This document shows, piece by piece, positions 45,172 through 52,905 of a DNA stretch of 64,000 nucleotides; positions within the stretch are counted from its first letter, which is position 1, and the number at the start of each line of letters is the position of its first letter. Origin of the DNA: Bacteroidota bacterium (GTDB lineage Bacteria; Bacteroidota; Ignavibacteria; Ignavibacteriales; Ignavibacteriaceae); contig JAKAKL010000109.1 of the NCBI GenBank assembly GCA_021824565.1, forward strand, positions 1-64,000, in the 5' to 3' direction. Made by a program: the position numbers and the translations under genes. The notes under the pieces were generated by a model. The model was not told the DNA's origin. It saw nothing but the letters and a program-made list of their open reading frames with translations, and searched no databases.

Positions 45172-46068
45172 ATGGCAAAACAAAATAGACGGGACTTTTT
45201 AAAGACCGCTGCGGTTGCGGGAACAGCAATCAGCGGCTTATCAATTAAACCGGCAAAGGCAGCACCTAAGAATATTCTATCCGAAGACAGGATGGGAGTT
45301 CTTGTTGATACTACTGTTTGTATTGGCTGCAGAAACTGCGAATGGGCATGTAAGAACGCTCATAACATGCCTACTCAACCTCAGGATAAATACAGCGACA
45401 GATCAGTCTTTAAAGAAATGAGACGACCGGATGAAAATGCTTTTACAGTTGTAAATGAATATCCCAATCCTCAAAATTCTGAAATTCCGACAGATGTAAA
45501 GGTTCAATGTATGCACTGCGATCATCCTGCGTGCGTTTCTGCTTGTATAGTCGGTGCATTTTCAAAACACGAAAGCGGCGCAGTTACTTGGGATACAACA
45601 AGGTGTATCGGATGTCGTTATTGCATGGTTGCCTGTCCTTTCCAGGTTCCTGCTTTTCAGTTTGATAAAGCGTTGAACCCACAAATTAAAAAATGCGACT
45701 TTTGTTACGAGAGAACTAAAGTAGGAAAACTTCCTGCATGCGTTGAGATTTGTCCGGTTGAGGCTTTAACATACGGAAGCAGAATAGACCTTATCAGAAT
45801 CGCTCGTGATAGAATAAGAAGAAATCCTGAAAAATATGTTAACCATATTTTTGGCGAATTTGAAGTAGGAGGAACATCCTGGCTTTATCTTGCAAATCAA
45901 GATTTCTCAAAGCTGCAATTTCCTAAGCTTGGTGAAAAGCCTGCACCGGGAGTTTCGGAATCTATCCAGCATGGAATATTCGCGTACTTTGTCCCGCCGG
46001 TTTCCTTATATGCTTTGCTCGGCGGTTTGATGTGGATTACTAAACGAAAAAATGAATCAGAAGAATAA
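45172..46068 (+). CDS. HybA-like four-cluster iron-sulfur protein with Tat signal
   Basis: The 298-residue protein starts with a twin-arginine signal (QNRRDFLKTAAVAG...). It has four cysteine groups for [4Fe-4S] clusters: CIGCRNCEWACKNAHN, CMHCDHPACVSACIVG, CIGCRYCMVACPFQVP and CDFCYERTKVGKLPACVEICP. A C-terminal membrane helix (IFAYFVPPVSLYALLGGLMWI) anchors it from the periplasmic side. HybA proteins carry electrons between periplasmic enzymes and a quinone-reactive NrfD-type subunit, which is encoded next, after 11 nt. No catalytic subunit is encoded in the cluster. Confidence 0.93.
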   Translation: MAKQNRRDFLKTAAVAGTAISGLSIKPAKAAPKNILSEDRMGVLVDTTVCIGCRNCEWACKNAHNMPTQPQDKYSDRSVFKEMRRPDENAFTVVNEYPNPQNSEIPTDVKVQCMHCDHPACVSACIVGAFSKHESGAVTWDTTRCIGCRYCMVACPFQVPAFQFDKALNPQIKKCDFCYERTKVGKLPACVEICPVEALTYGSRIDLIRIARDRIRRNPEKYVNHIFGEFEVGGTSWLYLANQDFSKLQFPKLGEKPAPGVSESIQHGIFAYFVPPVSLYALLGGLMWITKRKNESEE

Positions 46069-46079
46069 AGGGAAAAACT

Positions 46080-47324
46080 ATGGAATTATTTACAAGACCA
46101 ACAGCAATCAATAAAAAATATTTTACTCCAGGAGTAATTATCTTAATCCTTCTTGCATTGAACGGATTAGGATGGCTCGCTGCAAGATTTATATTCGGCA
46201 TAGGAGCCGTAACAAACCTCAGCAACCAATATCCCTGGGGAATTTGGATTGGAATTGATGTCGCCGCAGGTGTTGCTCTTGCCGCCGGAGGATTTACTAC
46301 CGCTGCATTGGGGCACGTTATGCACAGAGAATATTATCATGACGTTGTCCGCCCGGCACTTCTTACAGCAATGCTCGGATATACTTTCGTTGCGATCGGC
46401 GTTTTTATAGATATTGGAAGATGGTATTACATCTGGCATCCGCTGATTATGTGGAACGGAAGTTCCGCTCTTTTTGAAGTCGGCATTTGTGTAATGATTT
46501 ATCTAACCGTCTTATATATTGAGTTTCTTCCAACCGTCTGCGAAAGATTTATCGGTCATATGAACTTAAAAGGAGGACTAAAATTTCTAAATAGACCGGT
46601 AGAAAAACTATTGATTCTTCTAAACCGCGGATTATCTAAAACAATGTTCATATTTATTATAGCTGGAGTTGTGCTATCAACTCTGCATCAATCTTCGCTT
46701 GGAACATTAATGATAATCGCCGGTCCAAAGATGCATCCGTTATGGCAGACGCCGATTCTTCCGCTGTTGTTTTTATTATCTGCAATATCGGTCGGCTTTC
46801 CGATGGTGATATTCGAATCATTGATCGCTGCAAGATCGTTTGGCTTAAAACCGGAGATGCGCGTCCTTTCAAGGTTAGGTACAATGGTGGCGCCTATACT
46901 CGGAGTTTACCTGGCTTTCAAGCTTGGCGATATGTTTATCAGAGAAACTTTTGTCTATCTAACTTCTTTCAATCTTCAGAGTGTTATGTTCGTAATTGAA
47001 TTATTGTTCGGCGTAATAATCCCGCTGCGGATGTTTCTATCAAAAGCAGTTCTTAATTCTCCACTCTGGCTTTTTATAGCTTCTTCACTTGTTGTGTTCG
47101 GCGTCTTTTTAAACAGGCTGAATAATTTTGTTATAGCTTACAATCCGCCGTATAAATTTGCGACCTATATACCTTCAATTGGAGAGATATCAATTACCGT
47201 CGGATTTATTTCACTATTGGTTTTAGCTTACAGATTTATTGTGATGAATTTCCCGGTGATAAGCCAGCCCGACAAAAAATATTCTCCGGCTACAAAATTT
47301 GCAATAAGAGGAAGTGAAGAATGA
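46080..47324 (+). CDS. NrfD/HybB-type membrane subunit
   Basis: The 414-residue protein has nine to ten helices and no haem or cluster ligands. YPWGIWIGIDVAAGVALAAGGFTTAALGHVM and YTFVAIGVFIDIGRWYYIWHPLIMWNGSSALFEVGICVMIY are typical of the HybB/NrfD family, which exchanges electrons with quinones and may move protons. It follows the iron-sulfur gene and its end overlaps the next one by 4 nt (ATGA). It should form a membrane complex with both. Confidence 0.93.
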   Translation: MELFTRPTAINKKYFTPGVIILILLALNGLGWLAARFIFGIGAVTNLSNQYPWGIWIGIDVAAGVALAAGGFTTAALGHVMHREYYHDVVRPALLTAMLGYTFVAIGVFIDIGRWYYIWHPLIMWNGSSALFEVGICVMIYLTVLYIEFLPTVCERFIGHMNLKGGLKFLNRPVEKLLILLNRGLSKTMFIFIIAGVVLSTLHQSSLGTLMIIAGPKMHPLWQTPILPLLFLLSAISVGFPMVIFESLIAARSFGLKPEMRVLSRLGTMVAPILGVYLAFKLGDMFIRETFVYLTSFNLQSVMFVIELLFGVIIPLRMFLSKAVLNSPLWLFIASSLVVFGVFLNRLNNFVIAYNPPYKFATYIPSIGEISITVGFISLLVLAYRFIVMNFPVISQPDKKYSPATKFAIRGSEE

Positions 47325-48493
47325 AAAAGCTTATTATAATTTTAATTGGATTATCTACACTATGTTTCAGCCAGAAAAAAATTTCTAAAAGTCATCCGGA
47401 AACAAATCTTACATGCAAAACGTGTCATTCTTGTGAAGTTCCTACAAGACAGGATCCTTGTTTGAACGCTTGCCCGCGCGCTTCTATGGTTACGGTTTAC
47501 CAATCCGCAGAACAAACAAAAAATGTTGTTACGCTTGGAGATATTTCTAAAAAATATGAGCCTGTAATTTTTCAGCATAGAATTCACGCTGAGATGGCGG
47601 AGATGTCCGGCGGGTGTGCAACATGCCATCATTATAATACAAGCGGTCCGATTCAGCCTTGCAAGAATTGTCATTTGCTGAACAGAAAAAGAGATGATAT
47701 AAGCAAGCCTGATCTTGAAGCTGCTTACCATAGACAGTGTATTACATGCCACCGTGAATGGAGCCATCAGAATAGCTGCGTTTCATGTCATGCATTAAAA
47801 AATACGACGCAAACTGCTTCACAGTTAAAAGCCGCTCAAACGCTTGAAACGAAAACTCATCCCAAATTAGTCGAGCCTAAAAAACTGGTGTTTGAAACAA
47901 ACGACAAAGACGGCAGGCTGGTAACTTTCTATCACGATGAGCACATAAATATTTTCGGCGCTAAATGTATTAATTGCCACCAGCAGCAAAATTGTTCGAT
48001 GTGCCACGATAAAGATAAAGTGAGCAGCATAAATTCTCCGGAAGGCATGCCGGTAAAGATTCAGAAAAGCAAATCGGAACATCATAAGCCCTGCTTTGCA
48101 TGCCATCAGAACGATGATTGCAGTTTATGTCATCAGCAAAAAATTGCCGGACCATTTAATCATGAGATTAGAACGGGCTGGGCTTTGAACAGATTCCACG
48201 AGAAGCTTTCCTGTACTAAATGCCACGGAACAACGTACAAATTTGTTAAGCTCGATAACAACTGTGTAAGCTGTCATAAGGATTGGAAAGTTGGATCTTT
48301 TAATCATCAGATAACAGGTTTGAAACTTGACGAAAACCATGTCGAAGTAGACTGCGCTGATTGCCATGCGAATAAAGATTTTTCCAAGACACCTGTTTGT
48401 ACAAATTGCCATGATGATAAGAGTTTCCCGAAAGATAGACCCGGGAAGTTAGTTTCTTCAGTTCAGACTAAAACGATGAAAAGTGTAAAATAA
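47321..48493 (+). CDS. Thirteen-haem cytochrome c
   Basis: The 390-residue protein has a signal peptide (to about TLCFSQ, residue 18) and thirteen CXXCH haem-binding motifs, starting with CKTCH near residue 32 and ending with CTNCH near 364. The N-terminal CHSCEVPTRQDPCLNACPR has extra cysteines after the first haem site. Many isolated histidines between motifs could be distal ligands. It is probably periplasmic and passes electrons between the iron-sulfur protein/NrfD subunit and an outer partner. It overlaps the NrfD gene. Confidence 0.94.
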   Translation: MKKLIIILIGLSTLCFSQKKISKSHPETNLTCKTCHSCEVPTRQDPCLNACPRASMVTVYQSAEQTKNVVTLGDISKKYEPVIFQHRIHAEMAEMSGGCATCHHYNTSGPIQPCKNCHLLNRKRDDISKPDLEAAYHRQCITCHREWSHQNSCVSCHALKNTTQTASQLKAAQTLETKTHPKLVEPKKLVFETNDKDGRLVTFYHDEHINIFGAKCINCHQQQNCSMCHDKDKVSSINSPEGMPVKIQKSKSEHHKPCFACHQNDDCSLCHQQKIAGPFNHEIRTGWALNRFHEKLSCTKCHGTTYKFVKLDNNCVSCHKDWKVGSFNHQITGLKLDENHVEVDCADCHANKDFSKTPVCTNCHDDKSFPKDRPGKLVSSVQTKTMKSVK

Positions 48494-48539
48494 AAAATTA
48501 TTTCTTGTTCGCAGATTTGATGTTAGGCTCTTGATTAGT

Positions 48540-50414
48540 ATGAAGATGATGGTTACGAAAATAGGATCAAAATTAATTCTTGTCGTGGGAATTACCGCAT
48601 TGTTGACAATAGGAATTTTTTCCTACTTCAACATACGCTCTCACAGCGCAAGCCTGCTTGCTGAAGTTGAGCAGAGCGCCAACCAGCTAAGTGAAACAGT
48701 AATTCACAGCACCCGCTACGATATGCTTCTTAATCAGCGCGACAGGATCAACAAAATAATTAATACGATCGGCGAGCAGCCTAGTATAAGAACGGTGAGA
48801 GTAATAAATAAATCAGGCGCGATTATTTATTCTTCTCATCAGGGTGACATCGGCATGCTCGTCGATAAAAACGAGGAAAGCTGTTATGCTTGCCACGCCG
48901 CTAATAAGCCGCTGGAACGACTTCCGATAAAAGGAAGGACAAGAATCTTTAGACCGGTTCCCGCTTCGCCAAGAGTTCTCGGAATTATAAGTCCAATTTA
49001 TAATGAAGAATCCTGCTGGCAAGCAGACTGCCATGCGCATCAAAAATCGCAGACAGTTTTAGGTGTTCTTGATATTACTATTTCGCTTGAAGAAGTAGAT
49101 AAACAAATTCAAAAGAGCGAGATGGAAATAATTATTTTTGCTATTACCGCCGTTATTGCGTTGAGTTTTATCATCAGCTTTTTTGTGCGGCGATGGGTTG
49201 TAAAGCCTGTTAATGAACTGCTGAAGGCGACGAACCAGGTTGGTGTTGGAAACCTGAATTATATTATTAAAGACAAACGCAAAGATGAGCTTGGTATGCT
49301 TGCAAGATCATTTAATAACATGACCCAAAAATTATCCGAAGCAAGGATGCAGCTTTTCCAATCCGATAAGATGGCGTCGCTTGGAAGATTAGCCGCAGGC
49401 GTTGCCCATGAAATTAATAATCCGCTTACAGGAGTTTTAACATACAGCAGCTTCCTTCTCAAAAGAACTGAAAATAATCCCGAGCTTCAAGAAGATTTAA
49501 AAGTTATTGTAAGGGAAACAAAGCGAAGCAGGGAAATAGTTAAAAGCCTTCTTGATTTTGCCCGCCAATCAGTCCCGAAAAAGAATGAAGCGGACATCAA
49601 CGAGATTATTAACCGCTCTATTTCTGTAATTGAAAATCAGCTTACTATAAATCACGTAAAGCTTAATAAAAATCTTAACGCTAATCTTCCTACTATAACC
49701 GTAGATGCGAACCAGATGCAGCAGGTGTTTATTAATTTGATTGTAAATGCGGCGGACGCAATCGGGCAAAGCGGCGGCACTATCTCAATCTCGACTGCCT
49801 TAATAACTCTTTCTCCTTACGGTATTACTCATATTAAAAAAGCGATCTGCCCTAAGCGCCATGACTTGATCGATAATGAATACAAAATTGACGGAATGCC
49901 TTCGATCAAATTAAAAATTATTTCTTCGCTCGGCGAGAATATCGTTCACTTCGATCCTGTTTATGGGAGGAACCATCATTCAACTGTTATAAATGAATTA
50001 AAGGACGACGCAAAGGTTGTTTGTCCGCAGTGCAGCAGTTCGTTGATGGAAGAGAATGAAAAATGTCCGCAGTGCGGCTCTCCGATTTTTAATTTTGAAA
50101 TTCCCTCTCAAGGAAAGTTTGAGGCATGTACGAAGCGAAGCTGCGGATGGCAAAGATGGGACGCGGTCGATAACGAAGGCAAACGCGAATATATCGAAAT
50201 AAAACTTTCGGATACCGGATGCGGAATTGCTAAAGAAGATTTAACCAGAATATTTGAGCCTTTCTACAGTACAAAAGGACAGAAAGGAACAGGACTTGGA
50301 CTTTCCGTTATTTGGGGAATTATCGATAACCATAACGGAACTATTAAAGTTGAAAGTGAAATTAATAAAGGCACAACCTTTACGATTCATCTTCCTCTAA
50401 AGCATGTAAGATAA
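48540..50414 (+). CDS. Haem-binding sensor histidine kinase with a zinc-ribbon insert
   Basis: The protein of about 624 residues has two membrane helices (about 10-30 and 195-218) around a periplasmic domain with two haem c motifs: EESCYACHAAN (CXXCH) and EESCWQADCHAH (CX4CH). A HAMP segment follows. The kinase histidine is in GVAHEINNPLTGVLTYSSFLL. Between the N box (NLIVNAADAIG) and the G1 box (DTGCGI) sits an insert of about 135 residues with CPQC, CPQC and CTKRSC pairs. G2 is GTGLGLSVIWGIID. A TTG three codons upstream is possible. It lies between the cytochrome and the response regulators. Confidence 0.93.
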   Translation: MKMMVTKIGSKLILVVGITALLTIGIFSYFNIRSHSASLLAEVEQSANQLSETVIHSTRYDMLLNQRDRINKIINTIGEQPSIRTVRVINKSGAIIYSSHQGDIGMLVDKNEESCYACHAANKPLERLPIKGRTRIFRPVPASPRVLGIISPIYNEESCWQADCHAHQKSQTVLGVLDITISLEEVDKQIQKSEMEIIIFAITAVIALSFIISFFVRRWVVKPVNELLKATNQVGVGNLNYIIKDKRKDELGMLARSFNNMTQKLSEARMQLFQSDKMASLGRLAAGVAHEINNPLTGVLTYSSFLLKRTENNPELQEDLKVIVRETKRSREIVKSLLDFARQSVPKKNEADINEIINRSISVIENQLTINHVKLNKNLNANLPTITVDANQMQQVFINLIVNAADAIGQSGGTISISTALITLSPYGITHIKKAICPKRHDLIDNEYKIDGMPSIKLKIISSLGENIVHFDPVYGRNHHSTVINELKDDAKVVCPQCSSSLMEENEKCPQCGSPIFNFEIPSQGKFEACTKRSCGWQRWDAVDNEGKREYIEIKLSDTGCGIAKEDLTRIFEPFYSTKGQKGTGLGLSVIWGIIDNHNGTIKVESEINKGTTFTIHLPLKHVR

Positions 50415-50417
50415 TTT

Positions 50418-51224
50418 ATGAACAAGCAATTTGACATACTGGTTATTGACGACGAGCAGGTAATTATTGATGCGTTAAATAAGATATGTTCGACCGAAGG
50501 GTTCAGAGTTGATTCGTCCATTGAAGCAAAGGAAGCGCTCGAAAAATTATCCAGGAATTCTTACAAAATTATTGTCTGCGATATTATGATGCCCGACGTA
50601 GACGGGTTTGAATTTCTTGATGAGACTATTAAAAGAAAAATCTCTTCGCCGGTTATTATGACTACCGGTTATTCTACGGTTGAGAACTCAGTAAGATCAT
50701 TATATAACGGCGCAATCGACTTCATTCCCAAACCTTTTACCGCCGACGAGATTCTGAATTCAATTATACGCGGACTTAGGTTTTCGGAGATTCAGAAAAA
50801 AATTAGTTCGACTTCAAGCGAGAAGAATGACTCGACTATAATTTACGTTCCGTGTCCTGCAAAATATTTCAGGCTTGGTTATTCAAGCTGGGCGTCTGAA
50901 GAAAATACGGGATCGATATTAATTGGTATTACGGATTTATTTTTAAAAGTTGTTGAAAGCCTTGAAGAATTGGATCTTTATAAAATAGATGAAGAGATAA
51001 TCCAGGGAAATCAATGCGCCGCGCTGAAATCAAAAGACGGACTTGTTCATAACATTTTGTCGCCGGTTACCGGTAGAATTATTGAAAGGAACGAAGAGGT
51101 ACTAAAAGAAATAAATATTATTGAGAAAGATCCTTACTTCAACGGATGGCTTTATCGTGTTATTCCTTCGGAAAGCGAATACGAATTGAAGCAGCTTATT
51201 CCGTGCAGTTCGGACAGATTTTGA
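50418..51224 (+). CDS. Response regulator with GcvH-like domain
   Basis: The 268-residue protein starts 3 nt after the kinase stop codon. A receiver domain (residues 1-118, Asp55 in VCDIMMPDVDG) is joined to a domain resembling glycine-cleavage H protein (about 135-258): GSILIGITDLFLKVVESLEELDL, ILSPVTGRIIERNEEV and EKDPYFNGWLYRVIPSE. In alignment the lipoyl lysine position is replaced by glycine, so lipoylation is unlikely. No DNA-binding domain is visible; output probably goes through protein contacts. Confidence 0.88.
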   Translation: MNKQFDILVIDDEQVIIDALNKICSTEGFRVDSSIEAKEALEKLSRNSYKIIVCDIMMPDVDGFEFLDETIKRKISSPVIMTTGYSTVENSVRSLYNGAIDFIPKPFTADEILNSIIRGLRFSEIQKKISSTSSEKNDSTIIYVPCPAKYFRLGYSSWASEENTGSILIGITDLFLKVVESLEELDLYKIDEEIIQGNQCAALKSKDGLVHNILSPVTGRIIERNEEVLKEINIIEKDPYFNGWLYRVIPSESEYELKQLIPCSSDRF

Positions 51225-51277
51225 AATTATTAATTAACGGCTGAAGCCGTAGTAAAATTTAATCAAAGGAGTAAATT

Positions 51278-52426
51278 ATGCCACTATTAATTATTGCAGT
51301 AATATTGTTCGTTATTGCTGACGTCTTGATCAGGCAGATCAGCAAAAGAGTACGCGAACAAAAAGAAAGAAAAGACCGCGAAGCCGCTTTGGCGGTAAGC
51401 CTAAACCTGGATTTTACCAGAGAATCAAAAACATTGAAGCGGGTTGAAGTTGTTAATCCCAAAGCAAAAATTCTTTGTGTTGACGACGAGCCTGTAATAC
51501 TCGACAGCTTTAGAAAAATTCTTGTGCTCGACGGTTATTGTGTCGATACGGTAGAGACCGGTCAGGAAGCGCTTGGATTAATTCAATCGCGTCATTATGA
51601 TTTTGTCTTTACTGATCTTAAAATGCCGCAGATGGATGGAGTAGAAGTTACTAAATCAGTAAAACATCTTCGCCCTGATATTGACGTTGTTATCATAACC
51701 GGATTTGCGACGGTTGAAACGGCAGTTGAGTGCATGAAATTCGGCGCGATGGATTACGTTCAAAAACCATTTACCGAAGATGAGCTTCTTGAGTTTGTCA
51801 AAAAAATATTAATTAAAAGACAGGATAGAATTCAGAAGCAATTAAAGCCTAAAGTTCACATCACTCATTTGACCGGCTCGAAGCATTTTAAAACTTATGA
51901 GTTCGCGATACCTGGCGGAGTATTTATTTCTGCCGGTCATTGCTGGACAAGTATGGAACAGGACGGAACCGTAAAGATTGGCGTCGACGACTTTGCTAAA
52001 AAGCTTATTGGAAAAATCGATTCAATAGATTTTCCAAATCTTGGTATGATTGTAAAAGCCGGTCAGCCTTTGTTTACGGTAAAGCAAGGGAACCGTTCGG
52101 TTACTTTCAATTCGCCTTTATCCGGAAAAGTTACAAAGCTTAATATGCCGCTGAAGAATGAAATGGAATCTCTCGACATTACACCTTACGAATCAAACTG
52201 GGTTTGCATACTCGACGCTGAAAATCTTGATACTGAAATTAAAAATCTAAAGATCGGCAAGACAGCTGTTGCTTATTACCAGGAAGATATTGACAGGCTG
52301 ATTGCTTTAAGAAAAAAATCCGGCGGCAGTTCTTCAAACAATTATGACGAACTCCAGGAAGGGGAATTTGAAAAGCTTAGCGACACTGAATTTTATTCAA
52401 TGGTCAGCGAGTTTTTTAAGAAGTAA
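51278..52426 (+). CDS. Membrane-anchored response regulator with GcvH-like domain
   Basis: The 382-residue protein has an N-terminal membrane helix (about 2-19), a charged linker, a receiver (about 63-185, Asp113 in VFTDLKMPQMDG) and a GcvH-like domain: AGHCWTSMEQDGTVKIGVDDFAKKLIGKIDSIDFP, then SPLSGKVTKLN and a YESNWVCIL segment. The lipoyl lysine position appears as Asn. A tail of about 80 residues follows. A receiver domain anchored to the membrane is unusual. It probably acts on the haem-kinase signal near the respiratory complex. A hairpin follows the gene. Confidence 0.88.
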   Translation: MPLLIIAVILFVIADVLIRQISKRVREQKERKDREAALAVSLNLDFTRESKTLKRVEVVNPKAKILCVDDEPVILDSFRKILVLDGYCVDTVETGQEALGLIQSRHYDFVFTDLKMPQMDGVEVTKSVKHLRPDIDVVIITGFATVETAVECMKFGAMDYVQKPFTEDELLEFVKKILIKRQDRIQKQLKPKVHITHLTGSKHFKTYEFAIPGGVFISAGHCWTSMEQDGTVKIGVDDFAKKLIGKIDSIDFPNLGMIVKAGQPLFTVKQGNRSVTFNSPLSGKVTKLNMPLKNEMESLDITPYESNWVCILDAENLDTEIKNLKIGKTAVAYYQEDIDRLIALRKKSGGSSSNNYDELQEGEFEKLSDTEFYSMVSEFFKK

Positions 52427-52492: not shown

Positions 52493-52905
52493 ATTTTTGC
52501 TTCAAATTCGCATATTTATTGTCAAAATGTCCACATAAATTCTTTTTACGTGCACATTTTAACTATTTACCTGCGGATTTATTCTATTTATACGCACGTT
52601 TCAGATATTCATAAACGCATTAATTCTATTTATAAGTGCATTTCAGATATTCACACATACATTTATTCTATTTATAAATTCATTTCAGATATTCATGCTG
52701 AAAGTAATTCTTTCCATTTGCACGTTTCAGATATTTATAATCACATTTATTCTTTTTATGATAGCGTTTTAAGTATGTATGACGGCATTTATTCTTTAAA
52801 TAAGAGCGTTCCAGTTATTTAAGTTATCATTTATTCTATCCATGTGTGCATCTCAAGTTTTTTTATTAATAGTTATTCTTTAGAGTTATGCGTCTAAGGA
52901 ATTTT
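52493..52905. repeat. 21-nt periodic degenerate array, family B, copy 2
   Basis: This is a near copy of 33948-34325 (about 94% identical over the last 210 nt by eye). It keeps the same 21-nt period and alternating unit types. From the shared TTCAAATTCG to the shared CTAAGG it spans 393 nt against 351 nt in copy 1, a difference of exactly 42 nt, or one dimer. It fills the gap between the response regulator and macro-domain genes. The corresponding plus-strand frame stays open for 90 codons, but changes between the copies mostly alter amino acids. Confidence 0.92.

Follow-up and report, generated by a model that had tools for sequence, protein, structure and literature searches.

Most response regulators act on DNA, and the locus described here raises the question of what two adjacent regulators might do whose receiver domains are fused instead to a domain resembling the H-protein of the glycine cleavage system (GcvH). 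The two genes, designated RR1 and RR2, were found in a 4.6 Mb draft genome, within a stretch of 64,000 nt that was analysed as a whole and is referred to below as the window. Automatic annotation is expected to show the receiver and H-protein domains of both proteins; the questions addressed here are whether the H-like domains could still be carriers, where such proteins occur, and which cellular process they may serve.

Operon organization and domain content

RR1 and RR2 are the last two of six genes on the same strand, which follow the order hmcB-like, hmcC-like, multihaem cytochrome, histidine kinase, RR1 and RR2 (Table 1). The kinase gene ends at 50414 and RR1 begins at 50418, and a gap of 53 bases separates RR1 from RR2. 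Scans for promoters and terminators gave site numbers close to those of shuffled sequence (24 versus 27.1 and 9 versus 7.2). An AT-rich tandem repeat with periods of 42 and 84 and diverged copies lies 3′ of RR2 (window 52577-52819), where one frame is open across 90 codons.

Table 1. Features of the six-gene operon, in window coordinates
Feature	Position	Strand	Evidence
HmcB/HybA-like 4Fe-4S protein; Tat-type signal, hydrophobic helix at the C-terminus	45172..46068	+	NCBIfam HmcB 2.7e-98 (328.8 bits, cut-off of 420 not reached); Pfam TAT_signal 1.4e-4
HmcC/HybB-like NrfD-family integral membrane quinone subunit	46080..47324	+	Pfam NrfD 1.9e-20; NCBIfam HybB-type 1.5e-103 and HmcC 1.5e-80, both under cut-off
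Multihaem cytochrome c, 13 CxxCH	47321..48493	+	Cytochrom_CIII 7.2e-15; CxxCH count
Membrane histidine kinase (periplasmic sensor, HAMP, HisKA, HATPase); start codon uncertain	48531..50414	+	Pfam; 76 homologues aligned
CxxCH haem-binding motif of the sensor, C118-H122	48882..48896	+	C118, C121, H122 each ≥95% conserved among 76 kinases
Second haem-type motif of the sensor, CX4CH, C162-H168	49014..49034	+	C162, C167, H168 each ≥95% conserved among 76 kinases
Cys-rich zinc-ribbon-like insert within the HATPase domain	49803..50165	+	C440, H444, C498, C501, C515, C533 each ≥95% conserved among 76 kinases
RR1: receiver and lipoyl-less H-protein domain, without membrane helix	50418..51224	+	Pfam, structure model, hydropathy
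RR1 receiver domain	50436..50765	+	D12, D55, K105 unchanged in all 53 rows
RR1 H-protein-like domain, residues 144-268	50847..51221	+	VIA Z 20.6 to 1htp
RR1 hairpin tip K206-D207-G208, at the place of the GcvH lipoyl Lys	51033..51041	+	Alignment, model
RR2: membrane helix, receiver and lipoyl-less H-protein domain	51278..52426	+	Pfam, structure model
RR2 N-terminal membrane helix	51278..51337	+	Helix 2-41 in model; hydropathy in 81/81 homologues
RR2 receiver domain	51470..51799	+	D69, D70, D113, T141, K163 invariant in 56 rows
RR2 H-protein-like domain	51899..52282	+	Pfam, AlphaFold model, Foldseek
RR2 hairpin tip Asn272 at the lipoyl-Lys position	52091..52093	+	Alignment, model

According to Pfam, RR1 (268 aa) contains a Response_reg domain at residues 7-116 (3.7e-25) and a GCV_H domain at residues 157-260 (1.1e-15), and RR2 (382 aa) contains the same two domains at residues 65-174 (3.6e-31) and 220-335 (3.2e-17). 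The original prediction, made from the sequence, of two adjacent receivers fused to H-protein-like domains is therefore confirmed with exact coordinates, both by Pfam and by models that match solved H-proteins. Its statement that neither protein has a DNA-binding domain holds as well, none being detected in RR1 or RR2 by Pfam at E ≤ 10. To these features an N-terminal hydrophobic helix of RR2 can be added, since a membrane anchor had not been mentioned before, nor had the operon or its haem-type kinase: over the first 57 residues, the best hydropathy of any 17-residue segment is 2.53 or more in 81 of 81 RR2 homologues versus 1.65 or less in 65 RR1 sequences.

Distribution and linkage to HmcBC genes

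Two sets of loci were compared, set 1 comprising the window and regions L036-L075 and set 2 regions L076-L155. The latter was collected from 84,980 species with no other query than the H-like domain of RR2, which made the scan blind to gene neighbours. Forty regions, and 20 regions from a phylum search, were hand-picked from longer match lists; the threshold of the phylum search was permissive, with 284 of 296 genomes matching because true GcvH proteins match too, and 19 rows reached E-values under 1e-60, where RR2 lies. By record title, the closest named relatives of RR2 are from Bacteroidetes and Ignavibacteria metagenome-assembled genomes (MAGs), and the same six-gene order recurs in at least five groups (Ignavibacteria, Calditrichia, Elusimicrobia, Gemmatimonadetes and gammaproteobacterial MAGs). 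Set 2 holds 80 of 445 relatives, a choice that favours the best-scoring kin and makes the range of phyla a minimum; its record titles name Ignavibacteria, Melioribacter, Elusimicrobia, Gemmatimonadetes, Calditrichia, Xanthomonadales, Woeseiaceae and Chromatiales, nearly all of them MAGs.

A search for other receiver-GcvH fusions and their neighbours, suggested together with the original prediction, revealed that the fusions are recurrent and lie beside hmcB and hmcC. RR2 comes next after RR1 at all 23 loci of set 1 and at 70 of the 73 in set 2 (merged or contig-cut frames of set 2 being kept in the neighbourhood counts), and such a conserved order argues that the pairing is more than chance. 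The kinase gene adjoins RR1 on its 5′ side in 23/23 and 66/73 loci of the two sets, with some of the misses being contig ends or merged frames. When only genes with 6.5 kb of upstream flank were counted, hmcB/hmcC were present on the same strand within 6.5 kb of 46/46 receiver-GcvH genes in set 1 and 104/106 in set 2 (150/152 in total); both misses are in L109, in which hmcB, hmcC and the cytochrome lie slightly farther upstream. As a control, hmcB/hmcC were found at none of 30 true gcvH loci, of which approximately 1.5 kb per side was viewed.

Some loci deviate from the common layout. In one variant (L082, L118, L141, L147, L152, L153), an extra RR2-like gene and a small cytochrome precede hmcB, and gammaproteobacterial MAGs (L130, L146, L147, L152, L153) have three receiver-GcvH proteins per operon. 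In four other loci (L036, L037, L042, L075), large cytochromes with 19 and 16 CxxCH motifs and other haem proteins are encoded directly 3′ of RR2 and look like an extracellular electron conduit.

Conserved residues and predicted structure

Alignments for structure prediction included 53 of 64 eligible RR1 and 56 of 81 eligible RR2 sequences, the window's own among them, with merged or contig-end-cut frames left out. The residues involved in receiver phosphorylation are almost completely conserved: in RR1, D12, D55 and K105 occur in 53/53, D11 in 52/53 (E in one) and T83 in 51/53 (S in two), and in RR2, D69, D70, D113, T141 and K163 each occur in 56/56. As judged by these residues, both domains are intact phospho-acceptor receivers.

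The AlphaFold models, built on these 53 and 56 sequences (window and set 2 loci only), have a mean pLDDT of 92 for RR1 and 82 for RR2, and the pTM of 0.51 obtained for RR2 means that its domain arrangement is not settled by the model. RR1 residues 144-268 superpose on the pea H-protein 1htp with a Z of 20.6 and an rmsd of 1.5 Å over 122 residues (VIA-align), and residues 4-145 match NtrX-type receivers with a Z of about 21. The top Foldseek matches of both models were E. coli H-protein entries at an identity of 24-27%, including 3a8i_E for RR2 (target TM 0.87, rmsd 2.0 Å), while the receivers match NtrX/PmrA receivers structurally. Comparison with GcvH by structure prediction, as had been proposed, thus indicates an H-protein fold in both proteins, at an rmsd of 1.5-2.0 Å.

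Loss of the lipoylation site

In RR2, Asn272 occupies the turn between hairpin strands 264-270 and 273-278, in which GcvH carries its lipoyl-lysine. The original prediction had assigned Gly to this position in one protein and Asn in the other, and a count of eight residues towards the N-terminus from the SP-turn Pro does give Gly208 in RR1 and Asn272 in RR2. Asn272 stands; however, in the family alignment of RR1 a one-residue gap places Asp207 at the lipoyl column, directly preceded by Lys206, so that the assignment of Gly depends on the alignment. Lys206 itself is not conserved (K in 8/53), and the only conserved position of the tip is 207, with Asp or Glu in 46/53. The tip is acidic in RR1 and basic in RR2 (R/K at position 273 in 47/56, K/R at 269 in 47/56), a difference that, as a lead only, could allow contact between the two hairpins.

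In an alignment of fixed length, by which inserted residues of set 2 rows are dropped, and with both sets pooled (some species, such as those of L074 and L076, being shared), K is present at the lipoyl column in 2/96 RR1, 19/110 RR2 and 7/43 receiver-less domains, or, if distinct hairpin regions are counted, in 1/84 RR1 and 15/97 RR2. The Glu-x-x-Lys motif was sought in these 249 domains and found in none (0/96, 0/110 and 0/43, respectively), whereas the lipoyl Lys and the Glu at −3 are present in 30/30 true GcvH proteins of relatives, chosen without use of the lysine. The loss of the lipoyl lysine is thus upheld, and neither alignment nor model revealed a conserved lysine at the lipoylation site. 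A role of RR1 and RR2 as lipoate carriers was rejected, considering that the few column lysines are never accompanied by the −3 Glu. The true GcvH of the same genome is encoded on another contig, and the six-gene operon has neither gcvT nor gcvP.

Receiver-less H-like proteins and evolutionary history

A second operon of the same genome (L005) encodes a membrane-anchored receiver-less GcvH-like protein, HmcB-like and HmcC-like proteins, a degenerate Cys-bearing GcvH-like protein, a haem-type kinase and a sigma-54 regulator. Relatives, as well as other members of the phylum, also have operons of this type, and their regulator is an NtrC-type DNA-binding protein, which takes the place of RR1 and RR2. 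The two operon settings may differ, since the Fe-S protein of L005 shows no visible signal peptide. The degenerate GcvH-like protein (L005:3941-4666; 35 homologues aligned) has the N-terminal motif CIWM...YKLCD..FDCENC.FDK and no Pfam match. After the sigma-54 regulator, L005:7748-8287 encodes a small protein with the metalloprotease motif HELGHNFGLRH, which is presumably archaemetzincin-like, and many relatives have genes of similar size at this place. A 121-codon frame of repeated MVxKK...LRMR units (L005:15649-16014) is probably an intergenic repeat array.

The genome has five NrfD genes, and the two HmcC-like ones have a GcvH-like neighbour (among four GCV_H matches). When genes with 6.5 kb of flank on both sides were counted, hmcB/hmcC were found on the same strand within 6.5 kb of all receiver-less GcvH-like genes (21/21 and 1/1; 22/22). 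The lipoyl-less H-fold thus follows the HmcBC module with or without a receiver. Because the receiver-less proteins next to HmcB/HmcC are lipoyl-less as well, loss of the carrier site accompanies the respiratory module and is no peculiarity of the proteins fused to a receiver.

In a tree of 106 domains, RR2 and its kin (30 rows) form one clade (100/98), located among the membrane-anchored receiver-less proteins, and RR1 and its kin (25 rows) form a separate clade (100/93). Canonical GcvH is placed next to RR1 on long branches; root and sisterhood are unsure, and we attach no historical reading to this placement. The existence of two clades makes two receiver fusions to different lipoyl-less H-domain branches more likely than a single conversion followed by tandem duplication. 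The idea that a carrier had been converted into a signalling output in this lineage is therefore not borne out, given the two clades and the lipoyl-less, receiver-less kin beside HmcB/HmcC. RR2 and the receiver-less type share a similar N-terminal membrane helix, from which we infer that in RR2 the receiver is placed as if inserted between the anchor and the H-domain.

The haem-type sensor kinase

The periplasmic sensor of the kinase, with its two haem-type motifs, weakly matches Pfam Mcp40H-20_sensor (6.4e-5, under cut-off). Before the G1 box, the ATPase domain contains a Cys-rich insert of approximately 120 residues, which is present in 76 homologues across several phyla; a Pfam search yielded no family over cut-off for it and weak zinc-ribbon matches only. 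This insert is possibly a second, cytoplasmic sensor.

Proposed function and alternative explanations

We assign a probability of roughly one half to the reading that RR1 and RR2 are the output half of a redox-sensing two-component system, in which the lipoyl-less H-domains would dock on an HmcBC-type complex at the membrane and not on DNA. The HmcBC module is the most likely target because there is no DNA-binding domain, one of the two regulators is membrane-anchored, and the H-fold follows HmcBC even without a receiver. As its motifs suggest, the haem sensor of the kinase would respond to how oxidized or reduced the periplasmic cytochromes are that the HmcBC module serves, and phosphate would then pass from the kinase to RR1, which is soluble, and to RR2 at the membrane, consistent with the intact receiver residues and the gene order. 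The H-protein domain would act as a docking module and not as a carrier, and phosphorylation may alter its contact with the NrfD-type subunit on the cytoplasmic side, or with a partner common to both HmcBC modules. The outcome would be post-translational tuning of quinone-to-cytochrome electron flow, proton coupling or the state of the complex, without DNA binding. Since the Fe-S subunit is periplasmic (Tat signal) and the regulators are cytoplasmic, contact would be possible only with the membrane subunit. NrfD subunits couple quinone chemistry to ion movement, according to the available part of the source (PMC8076601), and by analogy the NrfD-type subunit would be a reasonable control point. 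For an NrfC/NrfD pair without a catalytic subunit in M. roseus, the accessible text proposes an electron path from quinol to periplasmic multihaem cytochromes (PMC3534657). Only tentatively do we propose the more specific version, in which the pathway output is direct, membrane-local control of the NrfD-type quinone/cytochrome complex by paired, phosphorylation-switched lipoyl-less H-domains, a fold that was once a metabolic carrier serving as an allosteric subunit of respiration whose state is sensed by the co-encoded haem kinase.

The gene linkage fits a regulator of complex activity, assembly or expression alike, and several other explanations have to be considered. A pure docking role does not explain the conserved Cys and His residues of the H-like domains, which leave room for a thiol-based function. 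In RR1, C146 (48/53) and C263 (46/53) lie one near each end of the domain and occur together in 44/53, accompanied by H211 (51/53), and RR2 has a single invariant Cys, C310 (56/56), and an invariant H221 (56/56). The H-like domains might thus still be carriers, serving thiol redox or sulfur transfer under the control of phosphorylation, by analogy with LbpA, in which conserved Cys residues are likewise located near each end of the GcvH fold according to the part of that report available (PMC6067878). We regard this as unlikely: in the same text LbpA retains the lipoyl Lys in all 95 proteins, which RR1 and RR2 do not, the operon is without Hdr-like genes, and the position of C263 is a gap in four gammaproteobacterial RR1 sequences.

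An indirect transcriptional output, with the H-like domain as an adaptor that binds a DNA-binding regulator such as the sigma-54 regulator of the second operon, is similarly improbable. Haem-type kinases are present in both operons, the second has an NtrC-type regulator, and the receivers of RR1 and RR2 resemble those of NtrX/NtrC1; however, RR2 is membrane-anchored, and many loci with the pair have no sigma-54 regulator within the stretch viewed around them. Slightly more doubtful than either of these is a role of RR1 and RR2 in guiding the assembly or maturation of the HmcBC-cytochrome complex and not its running activity. The linkage to hmcB/hmcC would be the same in that case, but a haem sensor kinase and two phospho-receivers seem more than an assembly factor needs, and we know of no maturation factor with such a make-up. 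Finally, the domains might mimic the H-protein, whose fold they share and for which complexes with T-protein, LplA and LIAS have been solved (as titled in structure entries), and might compete with it to control glycine cleavage or lipoylation, but this is very improbable considering that the operon has no gcv or lip genes and that the linkage is to HmcBC (150/152).

If the H-domain docks on the NrfD-type subunit as proposed, phosphorylation would set electron flow directly and provide a fast link from periplasmic redox state to quinone oxidation. This would also give a function to genes that are automatically annotated as glycine cleavage protein H and yet have no lipoylation motif. In at least five bacterial groups, a kinase, two receivers and a respiratory complex are combined in one operon, with an output domain that comes from central metabolism and has lost its cofactor site.

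Relationship to known systems

A description of a receiver-GcvH protein or of the present operon was not found in the literature searched, which covered few subscription papers. GcvH (PF01597) has the fold in common with the RR1 and RR2 domains, which differ from it by the absence of the lipoyl Lys motif, by fusion to a receiver and by their location in a respiratory operon. LbpA, a GcvH-like lipoate-binding protein of Hdr-like sulfur oxidation, is a GcvH paralogue that serves an electron-transfer system, and its Cys residues near both ends have counterparts in 44/53 RR1 sequences but not in RR2; it accompanies hdr genes and keeps the lipoyl Lys, as far as the available text goes (PMC6067878), and the six-gene operon has neither. 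With regard to the kinase, the accessible part of a study on Geobacter and Anaeromyxobacter describes periplasmic c-haem PAS-like sensors with one or two c-haem motifs (GSU0935 and GSU0582; Gsu0591 and Gsu0599 with a further haem motif), which resemble the present sensor (PMC3831638). The zinc-ribbon-like insert in the ATPase domain distinguishes the kinase described here from those proteins.

Response regulators with non-DNA-binding outputs are known, such as those of the PleD, CheB and RssB types, and RR1 and RR2 share with them the combination of a receiver and a non-DNA-binding effector; an H-like effector type was not found described. The Hmc operon of Desulfovibrio has an rrf1/rrf2 layout, with a receiver protein by the operon. 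It is similar to the present operon in having HmcB- and HmcC-like proteins with a receiver protein nearby, although none of the NCBIfam cut-offs is reached here (bits versus cut-off: HmcA 46.9/400, HmcB 328.8/420, HmcC 271.3/550). A Ddes_0843/0844 pair is mentioned for Desulfovibrio in the accessible portion of a further report (PMC5701242). Unlike in the Desulfovibrio system, the receivers of the present operon bear H-like domains and the kinase is encoded inside the operon, and the RR1-RR2 pair together with this kinase suggests a two-component system whose output is unusual, conserved and not directed at DNA.
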